Part shown: in pieces, positions 40,021 to 59,226 of the stretch
Layout of the letters: the number at the start of each line of letters is the position of its first letter
Position numbering within the stretch: position 1 is the first letter of the stretch
Assembly (NCBI RefSeq): GCF_000213805.1
Contig: NC_015556.1
Coordinates: 2,480,001-2,544,000 of the forward strand
Length of the DNA stretch: 64,000 nt
Direction of reading: 5' to 3'
From: Pseudomonas fulva 12-X
Lineage (GTDB): Bacteria > Pseudomonadota > Gammaproteobacteria > Pseudomonadales > Pseudomonadaceae
Notes under the pieces: generated by a model
Database searches by the model: none
Told to the model about the DNA's origin: nothing
Seen by the model: the letters and a program-made list of their open reading frames with translations, nothing else
Made by a program: the position numbers and the translations under genes

Positions 40021-40120
40021 CGTTAATGTCCTTTTGATACGGGCACGGCTCGGCCTGCCCACGCCATAGGCGGCGCGAGCAGGTTCTCGGGTTGGCAGTC
40101 GGAGAGGGCGAGGCCCGGTG

Positions 40121-41344: not shown

Positions 41345-41433
41345 TATTGAGATCCGCCAGGAAATGAAGAGAAGTGATGGAGGCGGAGTCTGGTCGCTGC
41401 AACATTTCTGAACGAATCGAACGACACGAAGAT

Positions 41434-41459
41434 AAATATCATCACCAATGATGATATTT
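41434..41459. promoter_or_regulatory. Palindrome upstream of mexE (candidate MexT box)
   Basis: AAATATCATCA (41434-41444), CCAA, TGATGATATTT (41449-41459): a perfect 11-bp inverted repeat 90 bp upstream of the mexE start. On the minus strand it reads ATCA-N5-GGTGAT-N4-TTTAT, close to the ATCA-N5-GTCGAT-N4-ACYAT pattern I recall for MexT. The palindrome is seen; MexT binding is inference. Confidence 0.6.
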
Positions 41460-41472
41460 CCCAATGGAATAT

Positions 41473-44292: not shown

Positions 44293-45729
44293 CTACCTGC
44301 CAAGCATCAGGCGGACCACCAGGCGGGTCAGCCGCCCATAGGGTGCCGAGACCTTGTCGGACATATTGAAGGGACTCAGTTTGAATACGCCTCGGGCATG
44401 GGACAGGCGCACGAAGCCTTCATAGCCGTGATAGGCGCCTGTGCCGCTTTCACCGACGCCGCCAAAGGGCAGGTCGTCCTGGGTGGCATGCAGCATCGTG
44501 CCATTGATGGTCACGCCACCGGAGCGGGTTTGCTGCACCACATGGTCGATGCTGGCTCGATCATTGGAGAAGCAATACAGCGCCAACGGTTTGGGCCGCT
44601 TGTTGATGAAAGCGAGTGCCTCGTCGAGTGTGTCATAGGCCACGACGGGCAACAGCGGGCCAAAAATTTCCTCGCGCATGATATCGCTGTTCAAGGGCAC
44701 GTCAGTCAGCAGGGTGGGCGGGATTTTGCGCTCGGCAGTCTGGTCGAACGCCTTGTCCTGCCACACCTTGGCTCCGGCCACGACGGCCTGATCGACCAGA
44801 TTCAACAGACGTTCGTAGTGGCGCTGGGAGATGATCGAGGTGTAGTCCTTGTTGCCGTCGATGGTGGGATACAGCTGCTTGGCTGCTGCCACCCATTCGC
44901 TGGCAAAGTGCTCGACCAGATGGCGCGGCACCAGCACATAGTCGGGGGCGACGCAGGTTTGACCTGCGTTGAACAGTTTGCCGATGGCGATCAGTCGCGC
45001 AGCTTTCTTGAGTGGGAAATCCGCAGTGAGTACCACTGGGGATTTGCCGCCCAATTCCAGCGTCACTGGTGTCAGGTTGCGCGCCGCAGCCGCCATTACT
45101 ACGCGCCCGACCTGGGTAGAGCCGGTAAATATCAGGTGGTCGAACGGCAGTTCGCTGAAGCGGCTGGCCACTTGCGCATCACCGATGACCACGCTGACCT
45201 GGTCGGCGGGGAAGGTTTTGGCCAGTAGCTCTTGTAGCAACAGGGCGGTATTGGGCGTCAGTTCCGATGGCTTGATCATCACCCGATTGCCTGCCGCCAG
45301 CGCTTCGACCAGCGGCACGAGGGTCAGTGTCAGCGGGTAATTCCATGGTGACAGAATGCCGACTACGCCCAGGGGCTGATAGATCACCCGCGCCGTGGCG
45401 GGCTTGAAGGCCAAGCCCACTTTGCGTTTGCTGGGGCGCATCCAGGCTTTGAGGTGCGAGCGAATATGCTTGATGCCGTTGACGATGGGCATCAGCTCGC
45501 TGAGTTGGGTCTCGGCAAACGAGCGGTTGCCGAAATCCGCGCACACCGCTTCCAGCAGTTGCGCCTGGTGATCGCTGACCAGGCGCAACACGGCGTTCAG
45601 GGCCGTGATACGCTGCTCGTAGGTGGGGGCTCCCTGGGCGTGCACGGCGGCTTGCTGAGCCGTGAACAATTCATCGATTAACGGCACGGGCTCAAGCGAC
45701 GAGGGCAGGTTGCTGAGAGGCTGATTCAT
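44293..45729 (-). CDS. Aldehyde dehydrogenase, coniferyl-aldehyde dehydrogenase-like
   Basis: 478 aa. The active-site cysteine is in LFNAGQTCVAPDYVLV, the general-base region is VTLELGGKSPVVL, and the NAD loop is LSPWNYPLTLTLVPLVEALAAGN with FTGSTQVGR. The short length, NAGQTCVAPDY and the C-terminal YHGYEGFVRLSHARGVFKLS resemble the CalB/class 3 group that oxidises coniferyl or fatty aldehydes. The ATG at 45729 has AAGGA at proper spacing, better than the in-frame TTG six codons upstream. It probably belongs to one transcript with the PLP enzyme upstream (54 bp gap) and the AraC downstream. Confidence 0.88.
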   Translation of the reverse strand: MNQPLSNLPSSLEPVPLIDELFTAQQAAVHAQGAPTYEQRITALNAVLRLVSDHQAQLLEAVCADFGNRSFAETQLSELMPIVNGIKHIRSHLKAWMRPSKRKVGLAFKPATARVIYQPLGVVGILSPWNYPLTLTLVPLVEALAAGNRVMIKPSELTPNTALLLQELLAKTFPADQVSVVIGDAQVASRFSELPFDHLIFTGSTQVGRVVMAAAARNLTPVTLELGGKSPVVLTADFPLKKAARLIAIGKLFNAGQTCVAPDYVLVPRHLVEHFASEWVAAAKQLYPTIDGNKDYTSIISQRHYERLLNLVDQAVVAGAKVWQDKAFDQTAERKIPPTLLTDVPLNSDIMREEIFGPLLPVVAYDTLDEALAFINKRPKPLALYCFSNDRASIDHVVQQTRSGGVTINGTMLHATQDDLPFGGVGESGTGAYHGYEGFVRLSHARGVFKLSPFNMSDKVSAPYGRLTRLVVRLMLGR

Positions 45730-45783
45730 GACGGTATCCTTGGGCAAAAATGCAGGAAAAGTGCGGTGAGAACGCGTGAGCCA

Positions 45784-47004
45784 TCAGAAGAAGTTTTTGC
45801 CTTCGCCGCGGTAAGTCGGTACACGGTTCACCACGCGCCCGCTGCTGATTACCAACAGTTCATCGAAACGCTCACACAGCTCGCCCGCCTTGGCGTGACG
45901 AAACAGAACAGGCTCACCGATGTTCAACGCGTGCGCCAGGGTGTGCAGCAACGGGGTCTGTACTTCGCCGGCGGCTTCGTTGTCGATCAGCCGGCAGCCG
46001 CTGGGCAGCCATGGCCGGGGCAGCCGGTCCTTGCCCGCTGGCCCGGAGGCGATGTAACCGCCGCCTGAGCACACCATCACGCCGGGTGCCTGGGTGCGTG
46101 TCACCGGCAAGGCGAAACCGGCAGCGGGCATCAGTTCAAAGGCTTGGTAATGGTCGAACAGGGTCGGTGCGTACAAGCCGGATCCGGCTGCCAACTCGGT
46201 AACCGAAGGGTCGAGGCGGGTACTTTCAAAACTGCCCGTGCCGCCGCCATTCACGAATTGCAGGGTATGGCCAGCCTTTTGCAATGCCTGCACGACCTGC
46301 TCACGGCGTTTATTGACTTCGACAATGGAGCGGCGCTTGAGAAAACGGATGATTCCATTCCTGATAGCTTGCCCTGGCACTGCGTCCATCAGCCCGGCAA
46401 TTTGCCCTTCATAGCCCATCAGCCCCCGCAATACGACGCTCTGGCGCGAGGCGATGTTGGCTGCCAGCCCGAGCGCACTCGCCACGTCATTGATCGGCGA
46501 GCGGTGTACGCCGAAGTACAGCCCGGGAAAAACCGATGACATATCCAGATCGATCGCCAACGGCATGACCACACCTTCTGTCATGGCTATCTCGTTGATC
46601 GCCTGCACCTGGGCGGGGTTATCGACCATCAAGGTAATCGAGCGTCCTCGGCGCAATTGGCAAGCGACTTTTACCAGGCTGCGTTCATCGACCGTCGGGT
46701 AAGCCACGACGATGTCGTCAAACCCCAAGCCGGCCAGCCAGGCGGCCTCGGCGGCGCAGTAGCACAGCAGGCCCTGCATGAATGGCCCCGCGGCCATGAT
46801 CGTGCGGAGCATCTCCACCGAACGTATGGATTTGGTCACCAGCCGCACGGGCAAGCCCCCAGCACGGTTGCCCAGGCGCTGCAGGTTTGCGATGAGCGCA
46901 TCCAGGTCGATGAAGGCGGCGGGCAGCTGCACCCCAGCCAGCGCCTCTCGGTAATAGGCGTAATCGCGAACAGTGGGCGGCGGGGGATTTTCGACACTGC
47001 GCAT
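45784..47004 (-). CDS. PLP-dependent amino acid deaminase/aldolase-like protein (D-threonine aldolase fold)
   Basis: 406-aa fold-type III PLP protein (alanine racemase N-terminal barrel plus D-serine dehydratase/D-threonine aldolase-like C-terminal domain). The likely Schiff-base lysine is K58 in VRLVTKSIRS. LMVDNPAQVQAI, LAIDLDMS and FVNGGGTGSFEST are barrel strands and the phosphate loop. The C-terminal FRHAKAGELCERF corresponds to the metal-site region of the family but is not the exact HxD seen in D-threonine aldolase. Relatives cleave beta-hydroxy-alpha-amino acids into glycine plus an aldehyde or deaminate them; here the aldehyde would go to the adjacent dehydrogenase. Start chosen at MRSVENPPPP. 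Substrate unknown. Confidence 0.8.
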   Translation of the reverse strand: MRSVENPPPPTVRDYAYYREALAGVQLPAAFIDLDALIANLQRLGNRAGGLPVRLVTKSIRSVEMLRTIMAAGPFMQGLLCYCAAEAAWLAGLGFDDIVVAYPTVDERSLVKVACQLRRGRSITLMVDNPAQVQAINEIAMTEGVVMPLAIDLDMSSVFPGLYFGVHRSPINDVASALGLAANIASRQSVVLRGLMGYEGQIAGLMDAVPGQAIRNGIIRFLKRRSIVEVNKRREQVVQALQKAGHTLQFVNGGGTGSFESTRLDPSVTELAAGSGLYAPTLFDHYQAFELMPAAGFALPVTRTQAPGVMVCSGGGYIASGPAGKDRLPRPWLPSGCRLIDNEAAGEVQTPLLHTLAHALNIGEPVLFRHAKAGELCERFDELLVISSGRVVNRVPTYRGEGKNFF

Positions 47005-47140
47005 GACGGACCCTATGAGTTCAGCGTTGTGAGGTGACGCGTAGTCTCGCTGCCGGGAGGGTAAAGGCCACATGGCGGCTATTGAAGGTGCGATCCGGCC
47101 GGTAAAGGGGTTCGCACCGGCCATGTTCGCGCCTCTCTCT

Positions 47141-47815
47141 TTACAGGCTCGAAGCCGGGGTCAAGCGACCCAGGTGGCTGACAAGCATCGAGGCAACCAT
47201 GGCACACACGCTCTTGGGGTCCAGGGACTCATCAAACAACAACTCGATGGTCGAGTGGATCATCTCGACCGCCACCCTGGAAGCGGTGGCGAGTTGCTGT
47301 GGGTCTGCGTGCGGAAACACCTGAGCGAGGATTTCCGCCTGTGCACCTGTGACCTTGCGGTGGGAGTCGAGCCTGACGTGCTCCAACGCCGGCACCGCGC
47401 GCAGCGCCTTGAGGATCCACATGCCGCCCAGGGTGGCATCAGTGACCCGGTAAGTGTCCAGGATCAGTTCGCTGAGCGCCGACTCCAGATCCTCGGTCGG
47501 GCCGGACAGCAATTGCGGGGTAATCCAGCGATCGATCAGCTCGTTCTGTTTTTCCAGCAGGCGCTCACCCAGCACGGTCAGCAGCGCGTACTTGTTCGGG
47601 AAGTAACGGTACAGCGCCGGCGGCGTCAGCCCTGCGCACTGGCAAACCAGGTTGGTGGACAGGCGCTCGATTCCCACATCACACAGGGTCTGCGCGGTGG
47701 CGACCAGAATCCGCTCGTAGGTTTCGGAGCTGCGCTGCTGTGCAGGCGATTTCTTTTGATCCTGGGTCTTCCCGGCGGTAGCGGCACGGGCGCGGGCAGT
47801 GTTGGGCTTGGCCAT
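47141..47815 (-). CDS. TetR-family transcriptional regulator
   Basis: 224 aa. The N-terminal helix-turn-helix (about residues 30-78) is RILVATAQTLCDVGIERLSTNLVCQCAGLTPPALYRYFPNKYALL, a standard TetR DNA-binding domain. The all-helical C-terminus is not assignable to a ligand class. The N-terminal 25 residues are basic and Ala-rich. It is divergent from the DUF2147-porin-kinase operon, and a 12-bp perfect palindrome lies between them, so it most likely represses that operon and itself. Start taken at ATG 47815 rather than the GTG two codons earlier. Confidence 0.92.
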   Translation of the reverse strand: MAKPNTARARAATAGKTQDQKKSPAQQRSSETYERILVATAQTLCDVGIERLSTNLVCQCAGLTPPALYRYFPNKYALLTVLGERLLEKQNELIDRWITPQLLSGPTEDLESALSELILDTYRVTDATLGGMWILKALRAVPALEHVRLDSHRKVTGAQAEILAQVFPHADPQQLATASRVAVEMIHSTIELLFDESLDPKSVCAMVASMLVSHLGRLTPASSL

Positions 47816-47888
47816 AGGCACCTGACGAAGAAAGGTTGGAAAGTCAGCTTAGCTAAATGAAAAAAAATGTTGCTGAGCCAGATAATGG

Positions 47889-47900
47889 TAGTTATAACTA
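47889..47900. promoter_or_regulatory. Candidate TetR operator
   Basis: TAGTTATAACTA is a perfect 12-bp palindrome 74 bp from the TetR start and 79 bp from the DUF2147 start, in an AT-rich stretch of an otherwise GC-rich region. Position and symmetry fit a shared operator controlling both divergent units; binding is inferred. Confidence 0.6.
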
Positions 47901-47978
47901 TCGTGTAGCGATGACTATCATAACCGATGCGTCGCTAGTGCGGTGGTCTCTGAACAACAAAAAATACAGGTGATGACT

Positions 47979-48404
47979 ATGAACGCTCGGCAATGGCTGT
48001 CTCTTTCACTGGCACTGGCGTGCTCTGCCATCGGACATGCGGCGGCAGGTCCACAGGAAGCCAAAGGTCTCTGGCTTACCTCGGAAAAGGATGCTGTGGT
48101 CAAGGTCGACGATTGCGTCGACAAGCCTGGCGCGCTGTGTGGAAAGGTGGTCTGGGTCAAGGACGAGGCGTCCGTCACCAGCGATTGCGGCGTACAGATC
48201 ATGCAACTGGACCGTTTCGACCAGGACGCATGGCGCGATGGCTGGGTGTTCGATCCCCGCGACCATAAAAAATACAAAGGCGTCGTTCGGGTCAAACAGG
48301 GGCTGCTCAATGTCCGGGCTTTCGTCGGCACCGAGATCCTCGGCAAGACGGAGCAATTCGAACGCGTTGCCTCACTGCCTCCTGCACCGGTTTGCAGTTT
48401 GTAA
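47979..48404 (+). CDS. DUF2147-family secreted protein
   Basis: 141 aa with signal peptide MNARQWLSLSLALACSAIGHAAAG. The mature part has the DUF2147 pattern: KGLWLTSEKDAVVKVDDC, LCGKVVWVKD, then DGWVFDPRDHKKYKGVVRV. It is a small beta-rich periplasmic or secreted domain. Three cysteines (DDC, LCGK, SDCG) plus one at the C-terminus may form disulfides. The ATG at 47979 is favoured since AGGTGA lies seven bases upstream; an ATG two codons earlier is too close to it. First gene of the plus-strand operon. DUF2147 has no established function. Confidence 0.85.
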   Translation: MNARQWLSLSLALACSAIGHAAAGPQEAKGLWLTSEKDAVVKVDDCVDKPGALCGKVVWVKDEASVTSDCGVQIMQLDRFDQDAWRDGWVFDPRDHKKYKGVVRVKQGLLNVRAFVGTEILGKTEQFERVASLPPAPVCSL

Positions 48405-48431
48405 ACCCGACCTTTCTTGTAGGAGAGCATC

Positions 48432-49313
48432 ATGCGTGCAACGACACACCATTGTCTGATGGCTGCCTTGCTGTGGCCTATCGTCAGCCCATCCCTGGCG
48501 ATCGCCGACGAAATGGCCAGCTATGCCATTGATGTCACCGCCAAGGCTGTATCCGATGTCCGGACCCGGGGTATCTCCGATTCCTTGAATGGCCCCGGCG
48601 CCCGAGTCACCGTCCAGGTTGCCCATGAAAGTGGCCTGGTTGCGCTGGCCGAGTTCACCACCGTGAGCAAAAAACAATTCATCGATGGCGACGGAGTGGG
48701 CGTTTTACTGGCGGGCGGTTATCGCTTTGGCGACCCGGAGGCTTGGCATTACGGCGTGGGCCTGGCCGCGGAAATGTTCCCGGACGCGCAGTTCAAGGCG
48801 CCGAACAAATTCGACTTCACGACGTTCACCCCAACCGATGAGCGTACGACCAACTACAACAGCCAGTTCGCGGTGTTGGAAATTGGCTACGGTGCGCTGG
48901 AAGGTCGGATCGCTCGGGTACTGTCCAAAACCTACCGTGGCGCCAACACCGGCGGTGTGTGCGGCGCCCAGCTGCAGTTTCGCGATGACCCCACGAAGGG
49001 CCTGGACTGCTACGCCAAGGGCGACCGTAACTCGCGCGGCAGCATGCTCTATGACCTCGACTACAAATACGCGCTGGGGATCAACACCACGCTGAAGCTG
49101 CACGCCGGCTACCAGCAACTCGTCAACTTTTCCGAGGCAAATGCGACCGACTACGCCGTCGGCCTGAGTCATCGCTGGCTTGGGTTCGACTGGGGTATCG
49201 ACTGGATAGGGGTCAATACCAAGGCGCGTGAACTGTACATGGTCGAGGACGACGGGCATGTGCGCTCCACGGATGACAACCGCTGGGTCGTATCGATTTC
49301 ACGCACTTTCTGA
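48432..49313 (+). CDS. TorF-family putative porin
   Basis: 293 aa, exported (signal peptide to about residue 25, PSLAIADE). The mature protein alternates hydrophobic and polar residues as in beta-barrels. The start KAVSDVRTRGISDSLNGP resembles the TorF/Gcw_chp family opening (usually TTDYVYRGIS-like). The last residue is Phe in VVSISRTF, the outer-membrane assembly signal. It has two cysteines in VCGAQLQFRDDPTKGLDC, likely a loop disulfide. AGGAGA precedes the start. It probably provides the outer-membrane route for the substrate of this operon. Confidence 0.82.
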   Translation: MRATTHHCLMAALLWPIVSPSLAIADEMASYAIDVTAKAVSDVRTRGISDSLNGPGARVTVQVAHESGLVALAEFTTVSKKQFIDGDGVGVLLAGGYRFGDPEAWHYGVGLAAEMFPDAQFKAPNKFDFTTFTPTDERTTNYNSQFAVLEIGYGALEGRIARVLSKTYRGANTGGVCGAQLQFRDDPTKGLDCYAKGDRNSRGSMLYDLDYKYALGINTTLKLHAGYQQLVNFSEANATDYAVGLSHRWLGFDWGIDWIGVNTKARELYMVEDDGHVRSTDDNRWVVSISRTF

Positions 49314-49323
49314 GTAAACCACT

Positions 49324-50952
49324 ATGACTTCGCTTTTCTTTTCCCGGGCGCCTCAGGCCGCCGCCGGTCTGGAGCAACTCGTCCTCGCTGTGGACCTCGG
49401 CACCTCCGGTTGCAAGTGCGCCCTGGTTTCACTGGAAGGCGATATCCGCGCGTGGGTGTTTCACAGTGTGCCGTTGCACGTGAGCGGGTTGAGCGTCGAG
49501 CAGGAACCGCAGGATTGGTGGGACGCTTTTCTGCATGGCGCCAACGAACTGCTCGGTGCCGATCCAGTGCGGCGGCGCCAGGTGATCGCGGTATGTTGCT
49601 CGACGCAGAGCGAAGGCACTGTGTGTGTCGATCGTGACGGCATGGCCATTGGACGGGCCATGCTGTGGCTGGACAAACGTGGGGCCGGCGCGGTGAAAAA
49701 ACGCATGGGGGGAGGGCGGTTCAGCCTGGCTGGCTACGGGCCGCTCAAGCTCTGGCGTTCACTGCGCCTGACCGGTGGCGTGGCGTCGCTGTCCGGCATG
49801 GATGCCGCCGGGCACATGGCCTATATCCTCGATCACGAGCCGCAGCGCTACGAGCGAACCCACAAGTTTCTCAACGTGCTCGACTACATGAACCTGCGGC
49901 TCTCGGGGCGCTATTGCGCCACCAGTGACTCGATGTTGACCGCCTGGATCACCGATAACCGCGACCCTCACCATATCCGTTATGACGATGGGCTGGTCAA
50001 GACACTGGGAATCGAGGCCGGCAAACTGCCCGAGCTCGTGCGCTCCACCGACGTTATCGGCACGCTGCGCCCGGAGCTTGCCGATACCCTCGGGCTGGCG
50101 CGCACCACGCAAGTGGTGGCGGGCGCAGTCGACACCTCGGCGGTCGCCGTCGGCGCCAGCGTCAGCGATTTTGCCTCGCACCTCTATCTGGGCACCTCGT
50201 CATGGGTAGGGGCTCACGTCCCGTTCAAGAAAACCAGCGTGCGTAATCACATTGCTGCGGTACCCAGTGCCGTCGACGGTCGCTACCTGGCGATGGCCAT
50301 GCAGTCGGCGGCGGGCGCGAACCTTTCCTTCCTGCGCGACAAGGTGCTGTACCACCCGGATGAGCTGCTCAGTGATGAACAGCAGCCGGACGTCTACGCC
50401 TTGCTTGACCGTATCGCTGCACGCGTGCCGCCGGGATCGAGAGGGTTGATCTACACGCCCTGGCTGTGTGGCGAGCGCTCGCCGATCAGTGACCCAAGCC
50501 TGCGCGCCGGCCTGTTCAATCTGAAGCTGGAGCACTCGCGGGAGGACATCATCCGAGCCTTCATGGAGGGGGTCGCCCTCAATACGCGCTGGATGTTCGA
50601 ACCGTTCGCGCGTTTTCTCGGCCAGCCCGCCGACGTGATCGTGGCTACCGGTGGCGGCGCCCAATCGGACGTGTGGTGTCAGATCATGGCTGATGTCTGT
50701 GGGCGCGTGATCCAGCAACCGCAGAACGCCATCCAGACCAATGCACGCGGGGCCGCATTCATTGCCGCTGTGGCATTGGGCAAGTTGCAGTTCCACGACC
50801 TGCCCAGCCTCAAGCGCCCACACCGACTGTTCGAACCGTCGCGCGCGAGCCGCGCGCTTTACGACGATCAATTCGCCACGTTCCAGGAGGTGCGCAAGCG
50901 CCTTGCGCCGCTCTACCGGCGACTGAACCCCATACAGAAGGCTGCCTCATGA
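49324..50952 (+). CDS. FGGY-family carbohydrate kinase
   Basis: 542-aa kinase of the xylulokinase/glycerol kinase superfamily. The N-terminal ATPase motif LVLAVDLGTSGCKCALV, the adenine/phosphate loop in LYLGTSSWVGAH, and the FGGY C-terminal signature region VIVATGGGAQSDVWCQIMADVCG are present. It would phosphorylate a sugar, polyol or polyol-like hydroxyl. It overlaps the downstream class II aldolase by 4 nt, the usual kinase-aldolase arrangement of pentose/hexose catabolism (as in fuculose and rhamnulose pathways). Substrate unknown. Confidence 0.9.
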   Translation: MTSLFFSRAPQAAAGLEQLVLAVDLGTSGCKCALVSLEGDIRAWVFHSVPLHVSGLSVEQEPQDWWDAFLHGANELLGADPVRRRQVIAVCCSTQSEGTVCVDRDGMAIGRAMLWLDKRGAGAVKKRMGGGRFSLAGYGPLKLWRSLRLTGGVASLSGMDAAGHMAYILDHEPQRYERTHKFLNVLDYMNLRLSGRYCATSDSMLTAWITDNRDPHHIRYDDGLVKTLGIEAGKLPELVRSTDVIGTLRPELADTLGLARTTQVVAGAVDTSAVAVGASVSDFASHLYLGTSSWVGAHVPFKKTSVRNHIAAVPSAVDGRYLAMAMQSAAGANLSFLRDKVLYHPDELLSDEQQPDVYALLDRIAARVPPGSRGLIYTPWLCGERSPISDPSLRAGLFNLKLEHSREDIIRAFMEGVALNTRWMFEPFARFLGQPADVIVATGGGAQSDVWCQIMADVCGRVIQQPQNAIQTNARGAAFIAAVALGKLQFHDLPSLKRPHRLFEPSRASRALYDDQFATFQEVRKRLAPLYRRLNPIQKAAS

Positions 50953-51626
50953 GCCATGTTCAAGAGCAAATCGTCGAGCTCTCGCAGCACCTGTGCCACC
51001 GCGGTTTTTTCGCGGCCACGGGCGGCAATCTCGCGTTGCGCCTCGACGCGCAGCACATCGCGGTTACGCCGTCGGCTACCGACTATTTCGCCATGCGCCC
51101 GGAGGATGTCTGCGTGCTGCGCCTCAAGGATCTGGCGCAGATCTCCGGTGAACGAGCACCCTCGGTTGAAAGCGGGCTGCATGCAAAAATTCTGCGCGCG
51201 CGCCCGGACGTGCAGTGCAGCATCCACACGCATCAGCCCGTAGCCAGCGCCTGCACCTTGCTCGGCAAACCGATGGAGGTGCCCGACCCTGCGCTGTGGG
51301 ATTGCCTGGGTAAGCACATTCCCCTGGTCGGCTACGCGCCTTCAGGTTCCAGCTGGCTGGCCGGCAAGTTCGGCCGGGCCATTCGTTGGGACTACAACGC
51401 GTACCTGATGCGCAACCACGGGGTGCTGTGCTGTGGCCCGGATGTCCAGACGACCCTGTTGCGCCTCGAGAGCCTCGAAACCTTTTGCCGTGACTACCTG
51501 TTACGCCAGATCACCGCACAGTCCCGCCATCAATCACAGTCACCCGCTGCCGTGGCACGCCTGGTCGACGCCCTGATGCGTTCCAACGCTGCCGATGCCC
51601 ACATTTCTTCCGAGATCCCATCATGA
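50949..51626 (+). CDS. Class II aldolase/adducin-family protein, catalytic copy
   Basis: 225 aa, FucA-like fold. All zinc and catalytic residues are present: Glu in PSVESGLHAKIL, the HTH pair in SIHTHQPVAS, and the third His in LMRNHGVLCCG. GFFAATGGNLALR is the phosphate-binding loop. Relatives cleave ketose-1-phosphates into dihydroxyacetone phosphate and an aldehyde. Coupled by 4-nt overlaps to the kinase upstream and the aminotransferase downstream, so it most likely acts on the kinase product. Confidence 0.9.
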   Translation: MSHVQEQIVELSQHLCHRGFFAATGGNLALRLDAQHIAVTPSATDYFAMRPEDVCVLRLKDLAQISGERAPSVESGLHAKILRARPDVQCSIHTHQPVASACTLLGKPMEVPDPALWDCLGKHIPLVGYAPSGSSWLAGKFGRAIRWDYNAYLMRNHGVLCCGPDVQTTLLRLESLETFCRDYLLRQITAQSRHQSQSPAAVARLVDALMRSNAADAHISSEIPS

Positions 51627-53104
51627 ACAAACCCCTTGATCCCATCACATTGCCCGCAGCAGCCGATGCAGCGGTCTCGCAATGGCCTGATGTCGACTCG
51701 CTGTATCGGCGTTTCGATGCGCTGGTCAAACAGCCGATTCGCCCCTTGAAGCGTGAAGCGCTAAACAAAGTCATGGGTTACTTCGACGAACGCTGTCAGG
51801 GGTCGAAACGGCTCGCTGAAGAGGCCAAGAAATTCATTCCCGGGGGCGTGCAGCATAACCTCGCGTTCAATCACCCGTTCCCGCTCGCCATCGCCCAGGC
51901 CAAGGGCGCCCACCTGACCGATGTGGACGGCAACCGCTATATCGATTTTCTACAGGCCGGCGGGCCGACGTTGCTGGGCTCCAACCATCCGGCGATTCGT
52001 GAGCAGGTCAACCGGATTCTGGACGACTGCGGTCCGGTCACCGGCCTGCTGCATGAATACGAGGTGAAGCTGGCGCAATTGGTCTGCGACGTGATGCCTA
52101 GCGTCGATATGGTTCGCCTGCTGGGCTCCGGTACCGAGGCGGTCATGGCGGCGGTGCGCCTGGCGCGCGCCTATACCGGCAAGAAATGGGTGATCAAGAT
52201 CGGCGGCGCCTATCACGGCTGGAGTGACCAACTGGTATACGGCATGCGGTTGCCAGGCACCGGCCGCCTGGAAGCCGTCGGCATCCCACGCGGCGCCACG
52301 GCTAACACCCAGGAAAGTCCGCCGAATAACCTGGACGCGCTGCGCAGGCGCTTGCAGATCAACCGCCTGCGTGGCGGCACGGCGGCGATCATGGTGGAGC
52401 CGTTCGGCCCGGAAAGTGGCACGCGCCCGGTGCACCCGGACTTCAACCGGCAACTGCGCAAACTGTGCGACGAATTCGATGCCCTGTTGATTTTCGACGA
52501 GGTGGTGACCGGCTTTCGCGCCGGCATGGGCGGCGCACAAGGCTATTTCAACGTGATGCCGGACATCACCGTATTGGGTAAATGCCTGACCGGCGGCTAC
52601 CCGATGGCGGGTGCGATCGGCGGGCGAAAGGATGTGATGCAATTGCTCGCCGGCGGCATCGGCACCACGGCACGACGTGCGTTTGTCGGTGGCACCTTGT
52701 CGGCCAACCCGCTGTCCTGCGTGGCCGGTTACTACGCCCTGATCGAGGCGCGCAAATTGAATGCACCGGCTTTGGCGGGGCGCGCTGGCGACCGTATGCG
52801 CAAGGGCCTGGAAGAAATCATCAACCGCCGTGGCTTACCCTATGTGGCCTATAACCTGGGCTCGATCGTGCACCTGCAAACCTCAGGCGTGCTGTTGCTC
52901 GATACCAGCAACCCGCTCAAGTTGCTGCGGGCACGCAACGAAGCCAAGTCGCGCAAGCACATGATGGAAGAAATGGGCGCTGCCTACACCGCCCACGGGC
53001 TGATCACCCTGGCCGGCAGCCGGATCTATACCAGCCTGGCCGATACCGACGATGTCATCGACGACGCACTCGAGCGGTTCGATGCGGTTTTCAAGCTGGT
53101 GTGA
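51623..53104 (+). CDS. Class III aminotransferase, glutamate-1-semialdehyde aminomutase-like
   Basis: 493-aa fold-type I PLP enzyme. The PLP lysine is K320 in VLGKCLTGGYPMAGAIGG. The PLP-binding aspartate is in LLIFDEVVTGFRAG, and LLGSGTEAVMAAVRLARAYTG and GGAYHGWSDQ form the cofactor phosphate and ring contacts. An N-terminal extension of about 55 residues precedes the family start. Relatives transaminate amines or isomerise amino-aldehydes; the fumonisin aminotransferase FumI is a class III enzyme acting on a sphingoid-like amine. Substrate here is unknown. Coupled to the aldolase by a 4-nt overlap. Confidence 0.88.
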   Translation: MNKPLDPITLPAAADAAVSQWPDVDSLYRRFDALVKQPIRPLKREALNKVMGYFDERCQGSKRLAEEAKKFIPGGVQHNLAFNHPFPLAIAQAKGAHLTDVDGNRYIDFLQAGGPTLLGSNHPAIREQVNRILDDCGPVTGLLHEYEVKLAQLVCDVMPSVDMVRLLGSGTEAVMAAVRLARAYTGKKWVIKIGGAYHGWSDQLVYGMRLPGTGRLEAVGIPRGATANTQESPPNNLDALRRRLQINRLRGGTAAIMVEPFGPESGTRPVHPDFNRQLRKLCDEFDALLIFDEVVTGFRAGMGGAQGYFNVMPDITVLGKCLTGGYPMAGAIGGRKDVMQLLAGGIGTTARRAFVGGTLSANPLSCVAGYYALIEARKLNAPALAGRAGDRMRKGLEEIINRRGLPYVAYNLGSIVHLQTSGVLLLDTSNPLKLLRARNEAKSRKHMMEEMGAAYTAHGLITLAGSRIYTSLADTDDVIDDALERFDAVFKLV

Positions 53105-53114
53105 GGTGAGCGTG

Positions 53115-53735
53115 ATGCGCGATGTACTGCGGCAACAATGGCTGGAAATCCGGCAAAGGCTGGTGGATCTGGTACAGGAGGGGGGCAGTGTTTCCTTGCG
53201 TGTACCGGGTGAGCAAAGCATGTGGTGGGGGCGACTGGACGATTTGGCTCCCACCCACTTCGATTGGGCGCCGCACGAGCCTGGTGATAGCCATACCCAC
53301 CAGGCGATCTACCGTGCCCGCAGTGACGTCGGCGCCATCCTGCTGGGCGGAGGGGACTTTGCCCAGTGCCTGGCGGACTTTGGCGGGGTCATGCCGATTC
53401 TGTTCGATGAACAGGCGCGCCATATTGGCCACATGGGGGCGCCGGCGGCATCGGTTCACGACATTGCCGGCGCCCTGCAGCGTGGCGGCAATGCCGTGTT
53501 GATCAAGGGTATGCCCGCGACCCTGGGCACCACCGGTGCCCGGATGGCGATGAATGCACAGCTGTTTGAAAAGTGCGCCAAGGCCTTCACCCTCGCCAAG
53601 GCCACCGGTGCCAAGATGACATTGCTGCCCTGGTGGGTCGTGCGAGTTGCCAACAGCCGGCTGATTAAAGACGAGCGACGTGCTGCGCAATGTTTTGCCC
53701 GAGGCGAGATTCCGCCGGAAAACCGTGGTTACTGA
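53115..53735 (+). CDS. Class II aldolase-fold protein lacking metal ligands
   Basis: 206 aa, start at 53115 after GAGGTGAG. Aligning RARSDVGAILLGGGDFAQ with RARPDVQCSIHTHQPVA of the other aldolase shows the HTH zinc ligands replaced by GGG, the catalytic Glu replaced by Asp (GDSHTHQAIYRAR), and the third His site replaced (VLIKGMPATLG against LMRNHGVL). It is thus a likely pseudoenzyme, a regulatory or structural partner of the catalytic copy, or a metal-free enzyme of new function. It lies 10 bp after the aminotransferase stop and 23 bp before the MFS-SDR gene. Confidence 0.78.
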   Translation: MRDVLRQQWLEIRQRLVDLVQEGGSVSLRVPGEQSMWWGRLDDLAPTHFDWAPHEPGDSHTHQAIYRARSDVGAILLGGGDFAQCLADFGGVMPILFDEQARHIGHMGAPAASVHDIAGALQRGGNAVLIKGMPATLGTTGARMAMNAQLFEKCAKAFTLAKATGAKMTLLPWWVVRVANSRLIKDERRAAQCFARGEIPPENRGY

Positions 53736-53758
53736 AACCCGTCAAGAGGTGTAGCGGC

Positions 53759-55732
53759 ATGAACATTTCGCCCGCTGTTTCCCATAAGCAACTGAGTGTC
53801 GCCCTGGCGCTGGGCTCTATCGCCGTGCTGATGGTGGGGCTGCAACCCTTGTTGCTGGGCGAGTTGCTGGCGCAGAACCGCCTGTCACTCGAGGGCGTCG
53901 GCCTGGTCGCCATGGGTGAAATCCTGGCGCTGGGACTGGGCGTGGTACTGGGCGATTCGCTGCGTTCGCGGTTCAGTCTGCGGGCGATCACGGTCGTCGC
54001 CATCCTGGCCGCCTCGGGGATGGACCTAATCACGGCCAGGAACACCGGCGATGGAGCCCTCGCGGCGACGCGGGCCTTGGCTGGCCTGGCCGAAGGTTTG
54101 CTGTTATGGGGGACCGTGAATCTGATTGTCCAGGGCCCGGCTCCTGACCGGGTCGCGGGCGTGTTCATGGTGGTGCAAACCCTCGGCCAGGCTTTGGTGG
54201 CTGCGGTGCTGGCATATTGGGTGCTACCCATTCCGAGCACGTCGTCCAATGGCTTCGTGTTTCTAGGTGCGCTGACGGCAGCCTGTTTGCTGTTGGTCAG
54301 GTGGCAGCCCACCCGGCTGGCCAATCAGCACGTGCAGCAAACGGCTGCTACCACTTTCGGCTGGGGCCTTAATCATCTGTTACTGCTGGGGCTGGTCTTC
54401 ATGCAGCTCAGTGCCATCGGCGGGCTTTGGGCTTACCTTGAGCCGTTGAGCAACTACGTGGGGCTTGATGCGCAAAACGCACAATTGCTCATCTCCGGCA
54501 CCTTGCTCATGCAGGTGGTGGGCGGGTGCCTGGGGATCGTCCTGGTCCGCCGCGTTTCTGACTATTCGCTGTTGGCTGTCGCGGCAATGCTGTTGGGCGG
54601 CATCGCGCTGGGAATGTATTTTTCGGCTGATCTGGGCGTCAGGGTATTCCTGGTGTTGTGCGGCGCGTTTGGTTTGGTCTGGCTTATGCTGACGCCGTTC
54701 CAGGTGCGCATCGCGCTGCAGCTCGATCCCTCCGGGCGGATCGCGGCACTGGTGCCCGGTATGCAACTGCTTGGGTGCGCGTTCGGCCCATTGATCGCTT
54801 CGCAGTGGGTAGTGGGGGAGAACGCCGAGCGTGTGCTGCTGGTCAGCACCTCGTTCTCGCTGATTGCACTGACCCTGGTCGGCTTGCTACGCCGGTGCCC
54901 CGCGAGCAAGCACGTCAGCTTCGCGCAAAAAGTGGTGCTGGTCGTCGGCGCGTCCAGCGGCATGGGGCGGGGCCTGGCGGTGCGTCTGGCGCAGGAGGGC
55001 GCCTGGGTGGTGGCAACTGCGCGGCGCAAGGAGCTGTTGAATGACCTGCAGCTGGAAATCACACGCCAGGGCGGCGAATGCCAGGTCTCGGCGGTGGATG
55101 CCCTGGATGAACGTGCGGCGGCTGGTCTGGTGGCTGAAGTCGTCGAGCGCTATGGCCGCCTCGACGTGGTAGTGCTCAATGCCGGCGGAGCACCCGCGCT
55201 GGATATGCGCGAGATGAAAGCTGCAGATGTCACGGCGTATATGCGCTCGAATTACGATGTGGTGGTCAACTACCTGTTCCCAGCCCTGGAGCAGATGAGC
55301 CGCCAGGGACATGGTTTTGTGGTGCACACCAATTCACTCGCCGGTTTTCTCGGTGTGCCCTTGCAGGGCCCCTACAGCGCCGCCAAGGGCGCACTGCGCC
55401 TGTTGATCGATACCTGCCGCATCGAGTTCGGTGGCCGAGGAATTCGTTTTCTATCGCTCTACCCAGGGTTTGTCGCCACTGCGCAAACCGCCAACGACGG
55501 CATGCCGGCACCGCTGGAAATACCTGAGGCCGCAGCGGTCGAGCATATGCTGTACGCCATGCGCAGCCGCCGGTGGGATTATTTGTTTCCCTGGCCGATG
55601 AGATGGGTGATCCGCTTGGCCAGGGCACTGCCCAAATCGGTCACGATGTGGGTGTTGCGTAAACAACTGCCATGCGTGCAGACGGTTGACGGGCGTCGTG
55701 AGGCGGCCGTTTCGCTACACAAAACCGGCTGA
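53759..55732 (+). CDS. Fused MFS transporter-SDR oxidoreductase
   Basis: One 657-aa frame joins two unrelated domains. Residues 1-385 hold about 11-12 hydrophobic helices with a major-facilitator pattern (MVGLQPLLLGELLAQNRLSLEGVGLVAMGEIL, later LVPGMQLLGCAFGPLIAS). Residues 390-655 form a short-chain dehydrogenase with GASSGMG (397-403), the NAG motif VVLNAGGAP, and the catalytic YSAAK (Y539, K543). A hydrophobic/basic C-terminal stretch RWVIRLARALPKSVTMWVLRK resembles lipid-acting SDRs. AAGAGGTG precedes the start and no stop or frameshift separates the halves. It suggests uptake directly coupled to oxidation or reduction at the membrane. Confidence 0.85.
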   Translation: MNISPAVSHKQLSVALALGSIAVLMVGLQPLLLGELLAQNRLSLEGVGLVAMGEILALGLGVVLGDSLRSRFSLRAITVVAILAASGMDLITARNTGDGALAATRALAGLAEGLLLWGTVNLIVQGPAPDRVAGVFMVVQTLGQALVAAVLAYWVLPIPSTSSNGFVFLGALTAACLLLVRWQPTRLANQHVQQTAATTFGWGLNHLLLLGLVFMQLSAIGGLWAYLEPLSNYVGLDAQNAQLLISGTLLMQVVGGCLGIVLVRRVSDYSLLAVAAMLLGGIALGMYFSADLGVRVFLVLCGAFGLVWLMLTPFQVRIALQLDPSGRIAALVPGMQLLGCAFGPLIASQWVVGENAERVLLVSTSFSLIALTLVGLLRRCPASKHVSFAQKVVLVVGASSGMGRGLAVRLAQEGAWVVATARRKELLNDLQLEITRQGGECQVSAVDALDERAAAGLVAEVVERYGRLDVVVLNAGGAPALDMREMKAADVTAYMRSNYDVVVNYLFPALEQMSRQGHGFVVHTNSLAGFLGVPLQGPYSAAKGALRLLIDTCRIEFGGRGIRFLSLYPGFVATAQTANDGMPAPLEIPEAAAVEHMLYAMRSRRWDYLFPWPMRWVIRLARALPKSVTMWVLRKQLPCVQTVDGRREAAVSLHKTG

Positions 55733-55735
55733 TCC

Positions 55736-56782
55736 TCATCGCTGGCGCTGCTCGCTCGGCAAGGTGCCCGTCCAGCGTTTGAACGCCCGACGCAGCACGC
55801 GTGCGTCGCTGTAGCCGAGCGTGTGAGCAATCTGCGCCAAGGTCATGGCGGTATTGTTCAGCAAATCGCTGGCGCGTTCATGGCGGATCTGGTCGAGCAG
55901 TTGGCTATAGGAAACCCCTGACACCGTCAGGCGTCGACGCAGCGTGCGCTCGCTCATGTTCAGTTGTCTGGCAAAGGTCTGCAGCGCCTGCGGGTCGTCC
56001 AGATGGGCGCGAATATGACTGCGCAGTGATTCGACCAGTGCGTCGTAACTCACGCCACGATCCAGCAGTTGATCCAGCTTGGCGCGCAGCGGTGCGCAGC
56101 TGATGTCGTCATAGTCCGGCAGGCGCGTGGTTAACCACTGCGCCGCGCTGATCAGCCGGTTCCTGCCGGCCTTGAACTTTATCGGGCAGCGAAAAATGCG
56201 GCTGTAACTGTCCGCATAAGACGGGCGTGAATACGCCAACTCGATACGCAATGGGCTGAAGCTTGGGCCTGCCAGTCGCCGTACAACGGCCACCACGCTG
56301 GAAAACGCCTCTTCCACCAGAAATGGCTCGATGTCGAGATCAAATACTTTGGGTTTGACTTCGATCACCAGCTCATCTTTTTGCTGGCTAGCCTGGTGCT
56401 CCATCAAGGCCCCCGTGTCGCCCTGATGCTCAAGCCCGTAGCGCATCGCCTCGCCGAGGGTTTCACAGGTCAACATCGCCAGCCCCGCAAATCCCCACGA
56501 CACCGGCGTCTGCCGAATACCCGTCGATAAGCCCAGCGCGGGATCGCCCAGAATCCGCCGGGCGCGGGTGATCAGCGTGCGGGTCTGGCGGTAGGACAAC
56601 CGCATATCCAGATCCAGCAGCTCCTCATGGCCGAAGCCCAGGCCACGGCACAGCTGTGCCGTGGATATCCCGCGCTCATTGACCAGGCTGAGCAGGGCGC
56701 GCGCGACGTTGGGCACCACCACGGCTTCATCGTGCTGGGGGTGCTGAGTCCAATGGTGAGTGTCGCCGGAGTGCTCAAGCAT
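55736..56782 (-). CDS. AraC-family regulator, OruR-type (second copy)
   Basis: 348 aa, paralogous to the regulator at 43258-44271: FLVEEAFSSVVAVVRRLAGPSFSPLRIELAYSRPSYADSYSRIF aligns with the same region there. The C-terminal double helix-turn-helix is LQTFARQLNMSERTLRRRLTVSG and LAQIAHTLGYSDARVLRRAFKRWTG. It is convergent with the MFS-SDR gene (3 bp between stops) and divergent from the FMO gene. A 21-bp-periodic direct repeat in that divergent gap is a likely binding site. Confidence 0.9.
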   Translation of the reverse strand: MLEHSGDTHHWTQHPQHDEAVVVPNVARALLSLVNERGISTAQLCRGLGFGHEELLDLDMRLSYRQTRTLITRARRILGDPALGLSTGIRQTPVSWGFAGLAMLTCETLGEAMRYGLEHQGDTGALMEHQASQQKDELVIEVKPKVFDLDIEPFLVEEAFSSVVAVVRRLAGPSFSPLRIELAYSRPSYADSYSRIFRCPIKFKAGRNRLISAAQWLTTRLPDYDDISCAPLRAKLDQLLDRGVSYDALVESLRSHIRAHLDDPQALQTFARQLNMSERTLRRRLTVSGVSYSQLLDQIRHERASDLLNNTAMTLAQIAHTLGYSDARVLRRAFKRWTGTLPSEQRQR

Positions 56783-56933: not shown

Positions 56934-58355
56934 ATGAGTGCGCTCGGCAATGCCCAGGTGATCGATCAGGGCGACAGCGTTTGCATAATCGGTTCAGGGC
57001 CCGGCGGGTTGAGTGCGGCGCGCGCCTTGAAGGCGCAGAACATCCCCTACGATCAGTTCGAGCGGCATGCGGACGTCGGTGGTATCTGGGACATTCATAA
57101 CAGCGGTACGCCGATGTACGAGTCGGCGCACTTCATCTCTTCCCGTGACTTGTCCGGCTTCGTCGGGTATCCCATGCCGGAGCATTACCCGGACTATCCC
57201 TCCCACCGTCAAATCGCCCACTACCTGCGCAGTTTTGCCGACGCCTTTGGCTTGCGCGAGGCGATTCAATTCAATACTTCAGTCGAGCTGATCGAGAAAG
57301 ACTCGGAAAACCGCTGGCGCGTCAGCCTTTCCAGTGGCGTTGTAAAGCGCTATCGCTGGGTGGTGCTTGCCACTGGCACAAACTGGAAACCGAACATGCC
57401 GTCGTTCCCGGGGCAGTTCAACGGTGAGATCCGTCACTCCAATACGTTCAAGTCCGGGCGCGAATTTCAGGGCAAACGCGTGGTGGTGGTCGGCGCCGGC
57501 AATTCCGGTGCGGATATTTCCTGTGAGGCGGCGATCCATGCCGAGCAAGCCTTTATCAGCATGCGCCGCGGCTATTACTTCATTCCCAAGCATGTGTTCG
57601 GCATGCCGGTCGACAGATTCAACGAGGGCCCACATCTGCCGTTGTGGTTGGCCCGCCCGGTGTTCAAAGGGCTGCTGCGCCTACTGGTCGGTGACCTGAC
57701 ACGCTGGGGGCTGCCCAAGCCTGACCACGCCCTGTTCGAAACCCACCCGATCATCAACTCCCAGCTACTGCACCATTTGCAGCACGGCAATATTGCCGTG
57801 CGCAAAAACATCGAGCGTTTTGACGGTGACTTCGTGGTGTTCGAGGATGGCACCCGCGAGCAGATCGATCTGGTGCTGTGTGCGACCGGGTACAAGTGGG
57901 GGGCGCAATGCGCTGCGCAGTTCTTCGAATGGAAGGGCGGGCGCCCATTGATGTACCTGTCCATGTTCAGCCGTACTCACCGCAACCTCTGTGCGATCGG
58001 CTACCTCGACCAGAACTCCAGCGCGTTCAAAACGTTCGATAGCCAGGCGCTGACGCTGGCTTCGTACTTTCGCGCGCAGCTTGACGGTGCCGCGACCGCG
58101 GCGCAGTTCGACCAGTTGATCCAGCGCGATGAGCCTGACCTGAGCGGCGGCATTCAATTCGTGAACTCGGATCGTCACGCCGTGTACCTGGATGCGCGGG
58201 CTTTCCTGGCCTACCTGATAAAGCTGCGCGCCGAGCTGAACTGGCCAGCCTTGGGCGCTCACCTCTACGACACCTTGAAAGTGGCCCCAGGTCGGGCCGT
58301 CGATACGCGGGTAAGGGTTCCCACGCTGCAAGAGGCTGGCGCCCATGGCGAATAA
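56934..58355 (+). CDS. Flavin-containing monooxygenase
   Basis: 473-aa class B flavoprotein monooxygenase. The FAD site is GSGPGGLSAARALKAQ and the NADPH site VVGAGNSGADISCEAA. Between them lies FNGEIRHSNTFKS, which fits the FMO fingerprint FxGxxxHSxxF rather than the Baeyer-Villiger form FxGxxxHTxxW. It may hydroxylate N or S atoms or oxidise ketones; substrate unknown. AAGGAATC precedes the ATG. It overlaps the downstream SDR by 11 nt and is divergent from the AraC regulator. Confidence 0.9.
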   Translation: MSALGNAQVIDQGDSVCIIGSGPGGLSAARALKAQNIPYDQFERHADVGGIWDIHNSGTPMYESAHFISSRDLSGFVGYPMPEHYPDYPSHRQIAHYLRSFADAFGLREAIQFNTSVELIEKDSENRWRVSLSSGVVKRYRWVVLATGTNWKPNMPSFPGQFNGEIRHSNTFKSGREFQGKRVVVVGAGNSGADISCEAAIHAEQAFISMRRGYYFIPKHVFGMPVDRFNEGPHLPLWLARPVFKGLLRLLVGDLTRWGLPKPDHALFETHPIINSQLLHHLQHGNIAVRKNIERFDGDFVVFEDGTREQIDLVLCATGYKWGAQCAAQFFEWKGGRPLMYLSMFSRTHRNLCAIGYLDQNSSAFKTFDSQALTLASYFRAQLDGAATAAQFDQLIQRDEPDLSGGIQFVNSDRHAVYLDARAFLAYLIKLRAELNWPALGAHLYDTLKVAPGRAVDTRVRVPTLQEAGAHGE

Positions 58356-59226
58356 ACGGGTATTCACCGGCTGGGTCGCGCTGATCACCGGTGGTGCGGG
58401 TGGGTTAGGCCGTGCGATTGCAGCAGCGTTGATCGAACGCGGTATCAAGTGTCTGTTGGTGGATATCGATGCGCAGCGCCTGGCCCAGGCAAGCAAGGCA
58501 TTAGGCCCCATGGCACTGACTTACCAGGCCGACCTAACGGACGCCCAGGCGCTGGAAGGGCTGGTCAATCATGTGCGCGAGGACCTCGGGCGCCTGGACC
58601 TGCTGGTCAATAACGCCGGGATATTGAGCAATACGCCATTCGAGTTGCGCTCGATGCAGACCATCACCCATGAGGTGCAACTCAACATGCTGGTGCCTAT
58701 CGCGTTGACCCAAGCGTTCCTGGGGCTGCTGCAACAGGCCGCTGACGGTCGAGTGATTTCAATCGTGTCCCTGGGCGGGTTATTCCCGATGCCGGAAACC
58801 TGCATTTATTCGGCGACCAAGTTCGGCCTGCGTGGTGCGATGCTTTGTCTGGGGCTGGATGGCAAGCGCCTCGGCGTAAAGTTCACCATCGTCAACCCGT
58901 CGGCTACCGAAACGCCGATGCTGATGCGCGAGGCCATTGAGGACGGCAACAAGATGCAGTTCCTCGATCCCCCGCAAATGCCTGAGGACGTTGCTCAAAC
59001 GGTGCTCAAGGCGCTGGACAAACCGTGCCTCGAGTTGTTCGTGAGGCCCAGCGAATCCTGGACGGCACGCCTGGTGATGCTGGCTCCCGGCATCTTGCCC
59101 CGCGTGCTGCCATTGTTTCGCCGCAAAAGCGAAACGGGCCACCGCAACTACCTGATATCCCTTGAACAGCGCGGTTTGATCAAGCGAGATGAGCAGGGCT
59201 GGCGCCTGTGTTTGCCGGAGAACTGA
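58345..59226 (+). CDS. Short-chain dehydrogenase/reductase
   Basis: 293 aa. The cofactor motif is TGGAGGLGRAI, NNAG follows in LLVNNAGIL, and the catalytic triad is S in SIVSLGG with YSATK. The C-terminal part after about residue 225 (RPSESWTARLVMLAPGILPRVLPLF) is amphipathic like that of SDRs acting on lipids or retinoids. It overlaps the FMO by 11 nt, implying a shared step, for example alcohol-to-ketone oxidation before oxygenation. Last gene of the insertion; the next stop downstream belongs to mexT on the other strand. Confidence 0.9.
   Translation: MANKRVFTGWVALITGGAGGLGRAIAAALIERGIKCLLVDIDAQRLAQASKALGPMALTYQADLTDAQALEGLVNHVREDLGRLDLLVNNAGILSNTPFELRSMQTITHEVQLNMLVPIALTQAFLGLLQQAADGRVISIVSLGGLFPMPETCIYSATKFGLRGAMLCLGLDGKRLGVKFTIVNPSATETPMLMREAIEDGNKMQFLDPPQMPEDVAQTVLKALDKPCLELFVRPSESWTARLVMLAPGILPRVLPLFRRKSETGHRNYLISLEQRGLIKRDEQGWRLCLPEN

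Follow-up and report, generated by a model that had tools for sequence, protein, structure and literature searches.

Eukaryotes degrade sphingoid bases with a sphingosine kinase, a sphingosine-1-phosphate (S1P) lyase and a fatty aldehyde dehydrogenase, and use Mpo1 for phytosphingosine. Pathways of the L-fucose, L-rhamnose and 5-deoxyribose type contain a kinase plus a class II aldolase, and the fumonisin catabolic cluster carries the aminotransferase FumI. In Pseudomonas aeruginosa, the SphR regulon comprises sphA, sphBCD and cerN (PMC5150637, PMC11893366, PMC4493636, PMC3900636). We analyzed a window of 64,000 nucleotides (nt), i.e., the whole stretch from position 2480001 to 2544000 of the 4.92-Mb single-contig genome of Pseudomonas fulva 12-X (G000). 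It contains a predicted plus-strand operon whose core genes encode an FGGY kinase, a class II aldolase, a class III aminotransferase and an aldolase homologue lacking the metal ligands (pseudo-aldolase). Judging from sequence, sphingoid bases are very likely the substrate of the island formed by this operon and its flanking genes, and phytosphingosine is probably among them. A preliminary description of this DNA had guessed, as speculation, a 2-amino-polyol or a sphingoid-like 2-amino-1,3-diol. The sphingoid option is supported by the ceramidase, sphBCD homologues, Mpo1-like dioxygenase and class-3-type aldehyde dehydrogenases that neighbor the core in relatives. The best explanation, and in our judgment a probable one, is that the island takes up and burns 2-amino-1,3-diols such as phytosphingosine and sphinganine.

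The seven genes with named domains that the preliminary description had placed at 47979..55732 were all found by open reading frame (ORF) and Pfam analysis, and their families were confirmed:

47979..48404, plus strand: DUF2147 protein (PF09917, 57 bits)
48432..49313, plus strand: putative outer-membrane porin of the TorF/Gcw_chp type (PF09694, 42 bits; TIGR02001, 41.7 bits, under the cut-off of 47.15)
49324..50952, plus strand: FGGY kinase with FGGY_N and FGGY_C domains, reaching no equivalog cut-off; proposed C1 kinase of a keto-sphingoid
50949..51626, plus strand: class II aldolase (PF00596, 136.9 bits; catalytic residues invariant); proposed to release dihydroxyacetone phosphate (DHAP)
51623..53104, plus strand: class III (HemL-like) aminotransferase (PF00202, 181 bits; TIGR00713 hemL, 291.6 bits); proposed first step
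53115..53735, plus strand: pseudo-aldolase, a class II aldolase fold without metal ligands (alignment and fold match)
53759..55732, plus strand: MFS-type transporter fused to an SDR oxidoreductase (by domains; SDR part 65% identical to a free-standing SDR in the Burkholderia locus L054)

The 4-nt overlaps reported for several junctions are real between kinase and aldolase and between aldolase and aminotransferase, but strict overlap is limited to these two. The other junctions are gaps of 10-27 nt, given starts at 53115 for the pseudo-aldolase and 53759 for the MFS-SDR gene, both taken from what homologues imply. The seven genes stand as a predicted operon, but the island is wider, with flanking modules on both strands.

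The island resembles eukaryotic sphingoid degradation in its proposed substrate class, its long-chain aldehyde product, a class-3 aldehyde dehydrogenase and, in some loci, an Mpo1-like enzyme. However, the island would transaminate the amine and its aldolase would cut between C2 and C3 to give DHAP, whereas eukaryotes release phosphoethanolamine, and a search limited to the scanned cluster genes found no sphingosine kinase or S1P lyase domain. Like the L-fucose, L-rhamnose and 5-deoxyribose pathways, it would use a kinase and then a metal-dependent class II aldolase to yield DHAP and an aldehyde, but it has an aminotransferase in place of the sugar isomerase, lipid-type neighbors and the extra pseudo-aldolase. 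A class III aminotransferase for a sphinganine-like amine would be common to the island and the fumonisin cluster, although the island aminotransferase is nearer to glutamate-1-semialdehyde (GSA) aminomutases, and the kinase and aldolase chemistry is additional. The ceramidase and sphBCD-type genes that adjoin the core in some relatives, and the AraC regulators close to it, recall the SphR regulon. In contrast, the accessible parts of the papers on that regulon make no mention of a kinase-aldolase-aminotransferase core, and the window's genome has neither a ceramidase nor, at E≤1e-60, SphC. The window porin was ruled out as SphA: it is of the TorF type, whereas SphA is a COG4313 channel (PMC4493636). 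The preliminary description knew of no named pathway with this gene set, and our literature search, whose coverage mostly excluded subscription papers, likewise found no paper describing the set or a transaminase-kinase-aldolase route for sphingoids. As far as can be told, the enzyme families are known and their combination and the proposed substrate are new, and there is a good chance that this is a distinct pathway within sphingoid catabolism.

From the domains, residues, gene order and linkage observed in these loci, we infer the substrate and the following order of steps. The TorF porin and the DUF2147 protein, or DUF1302 and DUF1329 proteins in a second clade, would carry the lipid across the envelope. 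The class III aminotransferase would convert the C2 amine into a ketone, yielding a long-chain 1,3-dihydroxy-2-ketone, to which the FGGY kinase would add a phosphate at C1, as related kinases do on ketoses. Retro-aldol cleavage of the C2-C3 bond by the class II aldolase would give DHAP plus a fatty aldehyde, in the case of phytosphingosine a 2-hydroxy-aldehyde, and the class-3 aldehyde dehydrogenase would oxidize this aldehyde to the acid. Where present, the Mpo1-like dioxygenase would take one carbon off the 2-hydroxy acid derived from phytosphingosine. The SDR fused to the transporter may adjust an alcohol or aldehyde, and TetR would keep the operon repressed until a pathway compound binds. 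We regard this full chemistry, as deduced from the genes, as fairly probable. We also lean, somewhat more cautiously, toward a general S1P-lyase-free bacterial sphingoid pathway. After transamination, an FGGY kinase would phosphorylate C1, and a class II aldolase, assisted by a metal-less partner of its own, would split the product into DHAP and a (2-hydroxy)fatty aldehyde. The pathway would occur on Pseudomonadota chromosomes and plasmids and, without the partner, in rumen Butyrivibrio.

Both FGGY domains of the kinase scored above the Pfam cut-offs (110.9 and 115.9 bits). The nearest families of the kinase and the aldolase are xylulokinase and the ribulose/fuculose phosphate aldolases, respectively. 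The kinase missed the equivalog cut-off of xylulokinase XylB (TIGR01312; 236.3 vs 380.25 bits), and the aldolase missed those of L-fuculose-phosphate aldolase FucA (51.5 vs 400.25 bits for TIGR01086 and 84.1 vs 264 bits for NF005302). The aldolase residues Glu74, His93, His95 and His157, which we take to be the metal and catalytic ligands, were invariant in all 13 aligned sequences, and the protein qualifies as a member of the class II aldolase superfamily. The pseudo-aldolase still matches the class II aldolase fold but lacks the residues of an active enzyme: among 18 aligned sequences, none has Glu in the Glu column, and His occurs in 1, 0 and 0 sequences at the three His columns. Its most probable role is that of a partner protein for the aldolase without catalytic activity; its homologues often carry the name hypothetical protein. 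The aminotransferase scored under the equivalog cut-off of the GSA aminomutase HemL (527.3 bits for TIGR00713), and a PDB sequence search placed it closer to GSA aminomutases (248 bits) than to aminopentol aminotransferase 6hbs (102 bits), an enzyme acting on a sphinganine-like mycotoxin.

These tests bear on whether a sphingoid island might use other chemistry, with the kinase acting before the aminotransferase to give a sphingoid-1-phosphate, or acting on the short product after an aldolase cut that releases dihydroxyacetone instead of DHAP. Gene linkage indicates the substrate class and not the step order, and neither the kinase nor the aldolase reached an equivalog cut-off among the models shown, both of which leave room for such variants. 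However, Glu74, His93, His95 and His157 are kept as in the phosphate-using fuculose aldolases, and by established chemistry a retro-aldol cut without the C2 ketone would have no electron sink. We therefore consider these variants unlikely.

The neighborhood comparison around the core covered 26 Pseudomonas-family loci (the window, L016-L036, L098, L100, L102 and L103) plus two plasmid loci, all compared by tblastn. L104 (G1071; same contig as L024) and G950 (L092; a short locus only) were left out of the counts. Kinase, aldolase, aminotransferase and pseudo-aldolase genes occur in 26/26 loci and on the Burkholderia ambifaria plasmid L054, a count based on tblastn homology with reading frames not individually checked in every locus; three genes appear to be disrupted or to contain sequencing errors, namely the L102 kinase, the L030 aminotransferase and the L017 MFS-SDR gene. 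The Butyrivibrio plasmid L055 has homologues of the kinase (31%), aldolase (29%) and aminotransferase (56%) and no match to the pseudo-aldolase. The first clade (19/26 loci) carries the envelope set of TetR, DUF2147, porin and MFS genes, and the second (7/26) another TetR with DUF1302 and DUF1329 genes, the pair being present in all seven. Proteins of these two families are needed for Tween20 use by P. putida (PMC10866462) and are also encoded in a cluster for monoterpene transport (PMC6394551); by this analogy, the island substrate is likely hydrophobic. The SDR part of the MFS-SDR protein was found in 11/26 loci. All 10 named loci found via the pseudo-aldolase are from Pseudomonas. The core is rare: aminotransferase orthologues occur in 10 of the 149 genomes of a genus draw and, at E≤1e-110, in 6/398 phylum-draw and 1/369 class-draw genomes (the window itself), neither of the latter draws reaching Burkholderiales chromosomes. 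Viral contigs yielded no such orthologue. Among 8000 scored proteins, 7657 counted as aminotransferase orthologues at E≤1e-120.

Some loci have features of their own. Pseudomonas salomonii ICMP 14252 carries two core copies on separate contigs (L018 and L019). In the rumen Butyrivibrio (L055:11891-16488), a GtrA gene lies between the kinase, aldolase and aminotransferase homologues, and a class-3 aldehyde dehydrogenase gene lies beyond an IS66 element. The Burkholderia island may be mobile, because it lies on a plasmid typed as conjugative with a Tn3 transposase gene before it and IS5 transposase genes inside and after it.

Four kinds of neighboring genes connect the core with sphingolipids. 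First, a neutral ceramidase gene follows DUF1329 in L035, L098 and L100 (3/26 loci), its product scoring 432 bits against neutral ceramidase 2zws. Neutral ceramidase was found in 4 of the 149 genomes of the genus draw, and two genomes have both it and the aminotransferase (hypergeometric 0.023), with about 7 kb between the two genes in each; G163 is a third genome with this arrangement.

Second, the products of the sphingosine-induced sphBCD genes are named as cytochrome c, ALO and Ala_racemase_N kinds of protein (PMC5150637), and genes of these kinds (PF13442, PF04030 and PF01168, as scanned in L036) lie in sphBCD order beside an AraC gene and the core in L034, L036 and L100/L101 (3/26 loci). 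The ALO and Ala_racemase_N proteins of the core loci are 71-75% identical to those of an AraC-adjacent set in three 6.0-6.7-Mb genomes of another genus, which by its domains and order appears to be sphBCD itself. The sphBC genes have a role in growth with sphingosine, sphinganine and phytosphingosine, as well as in the disappearance of sphingosine (PMC11893366). SphC, the ALO-type oxidase, was found in 8/23 genomes and adjoins the core in three of these. An SphD-like gene in G944 (L122:8798-10068) is split over two frames, and an SphC-like gene in G095 (L123:7330-8703) has an in-frame stop; both are possibly decaying sphBCD-type copies.

Third, 3/26 loci and the Burkholderia plasmid L054 have, within the island or close to it, an Mpo1-like gene, described in Pfam as "2-hydroxy-palmitic acid dioxygenase Mpo1-like". 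Yeast Mpo1 takes part in phytosphingosine breakdown. The gene is 16 nt behind the SDR oxidoreductase gene SDR2 in L017, about 110 nt behind the MFS-SDR gene in L103, and in L124 behind FMO and SDR genes, on the upstream side of the L024 operon at a distance of about 10 kb; in L054 it adjoins an aldehyde dehydrogenase gene. Mpo1-like matches better than 1e-37 total 144 and are spread over 142 genomes; G944 and G1071 are the only genomes with a pair, and the second full-type copy of each is the island copy. Fourth, class-3-type aldehyde dehydrogenase homologues lie near the core in 17/26 loci; against the fatty aldehyde dehydrogenase 4qgk, those of the window (44293-45747), L026 and L055 scored 324, 299 and 243 bits, respectively.

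Several observations weigh against a sphingoid substrate and the proposed chemistry. To our knowledge, no FGGY kinase with a lipid substrate is known. No ceramidase was found in 20 of the 21 core-bearing genomes or records searched, G163 being the only positive, nor was one found in the window's own genome. Two of the four ceramidase genomes in the draw (G987 and G1054) have no aminotransferase. The ceramidases of the three loci are 89-97% identical and come from related species, and because these loci are such close relatives, their ceramidase linkage may represent one event. SphC at E≤1e-60 is missing from 10 of the 14 core-bearing genomes searched, G000 included, and in G944 it lies about 278 kb from the core. 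Some Mpo1-like gene is present in 146/149 Pseudomonas genomes; because presence alone is thus uninformative, it was dropped as evidence and only position and second copies were kept. The two Mpo1-like genes of the window's genome lie about 0.4 and 2.1 Mb away, and the one in L054 may be broken, because it spans only positions 12-89 of the 95-position profile and lies directly against an IS5 gene. Furthermore, the best PDB matches of the window, L026 and L055 aldehyde dehydrogenases are not in every case fatty-aldehyde enzymes, 4qgk being the best match of none of them, and no aldehyde dehydrogenase match was found near the core in 9/26 loci (L016, L018 and seven second-clade loci).

Other roles for the island are less probable. 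It might detoxify antimicrobial sphingoid bases or sphinganine-like toxins of plants, fungi or bacteria instead of using them as food. The P. aeruginosa sphBC genes guard against growth inhibition by sphingoid bases (PMC11893366), and 6hbs, at 102 bits only, is among the PDB relatives of the aminotransferase. However, the kinase, DHAP-type aldolase and aldehyde dehydrogenase would recover carbon, which is beyond the needs of detoxification, and the ceramidase neighbors suggest foraging, so this role seems improbable. Catabolism of a hydrophilic amino-polyol or amino sugar, with coincidental lipid neighbors, would suit FGGY kinases and class II aldolases, which are usually sugar enzymes. It is quite improbable, as ceramidase, sphBCD homologues, Mpo1-like genes, class-3-type aldehyde dehydrogenases and DUF1302/DUF1329 recur beside the core across lineages, and the scans turned up no sugar transporter among the window genes that they covered and, for 40.1-61.5 kb, no sugar isomerase. 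Biosynthesis in reverse, in which the aldolase joins DHAP to a fatty aldehyde before transamination to a sphingoid base, is barely credible: aldolases are reversible and sphinganine-type lipids are produced in one Pseudomonas through a non-canonical polyketide synthase route (PMC12134224), but the operon has a kinase and no phosphatase recognized by Pfam scans, and aldehyde dehydrogenase, ceramidase and outer-membrane genes adjoin the core in relatives.

The operon is flanked by the following regulatory and accessory features:

41713..43248, plus strand: aldehyde dehydrogenase of 511 aa (Aldedh, 381.6 bits); possible accessory gene with the weakest link to the island
43258..44271, minus strand: AraC-family regulator (PF12625; Pfam; 36-38% to the AraC adjoining sphBCD-type genes in L119-L122)
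44293..45747, minus strand: class-3 aldehyde dehydrogenase, candidate fatty-aldehyde oxidizer (PDB matches: steroid aldehyde dehydrogenase 9nxl, 349 bits, best; 4qgk, 324 bits, third)
45784..47124, minus strand: pyridoxal phosphate (PLP) fold-III (Ala_racemase_N) enzyme, a distant SphD-type relative (Pfam; 24% over 408 aa, E 1e-13, to the L036 SphD-like protein)
47141..47821, minus strand: TetR regulator, divergent from the operon (Pfam TetR_N; present in 19/26 Pseudomonas-family loci and L054)
47887..47902: candidate TetR operator site 1, GGTAGTTATAACTATC (conserved block in a 13-sequence alignment)
47904..47919: candidate TetR operator site 2 (same 13-sequence alignment as site 1)
55736..56782, minus strand: AraC-family regulator (PF12625; 42% to the AraC adjoining the core in L034-L036, L098 and L100)
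56934..58355, plus strand: FMO-like flavoprotein of an accessory module (homologues at 62-63% close to the core in L035, L036, L099 and L101)
58345..59226, plus strand: SDR oxidoreductase (SDR2) of the accessory module (followed by the Mpo1-like gene in L017 and L124)

The double palindrome between the TetR gene and the operon is kept in the 13-sequence alignment from Pseudomonas via a second genus of the family to Burkholderia, suggesting that TetR binds at 47887-47919. The operator pattern was found 2 times vs 0.41 expected by chance, but since this very alignment served to define the pattern, the figure does not amount to an independent test. With at most one mismatch, the pattern occurs mostly at the island promoter, plus a few further places; no lipid genes were recognized among the ORFs, whose families were not scanned, around the G000 sites near 0.11 and 2.27 Mb and the site on G584 contig 9. 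A distal TetR regulon was rejected, since a search of 16 genomes that allowed up to two mismatches hit 2-9 places in each, vs 1-10 for a reversed control. Nor was the core-adjacent AraC regulator taken as SphR, at 32-39% identity to the AraC beside sphBCD-type genes in L119-L122.

Both clades have FMO, SDR2 and AraC genes close to the core, and also a PLP fold-III gene, which falls into two different subfamilies; all four probably belong to the island. The PLP fold-III enzyme could be a beta-hydroxy amino acid aldolase or a racemase in a parallel sphingoid route. L017 and L019-L023 include, at their edge, the end of the 41713..43248 aldehyde dehydrogenase gene (91-93%). Upstream, at 36844-41464 of the window, lie a 1072-aa ORF (family not scanned) and a gene for an HlyD-type protein; ORFs of 1013-1023 aa (families not scanned) follow the core in L017, L018, L022 and L103.

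These findings bear on how bacteria metabolize sphingoid bases. In a 2025 study, P. aeruginosa turned sphingosine into a product that was not identified, and a different resistance mechanism had to be assumed for one P. fluorescens strain (PMC11893366). The island offers this field four core proteins together with one regulator and its candidate operator. If the proposed pathway is true, these bacteria would use sugar-like chemistry for lipid breakdown in place of the lyase of animals and yeast. It would also provide enzymes for DHAP-based sphingoid synthesis, a carbon source for plant- and gut-associated bacteria, and a possible function for the metal-less family of aldolase homologues.

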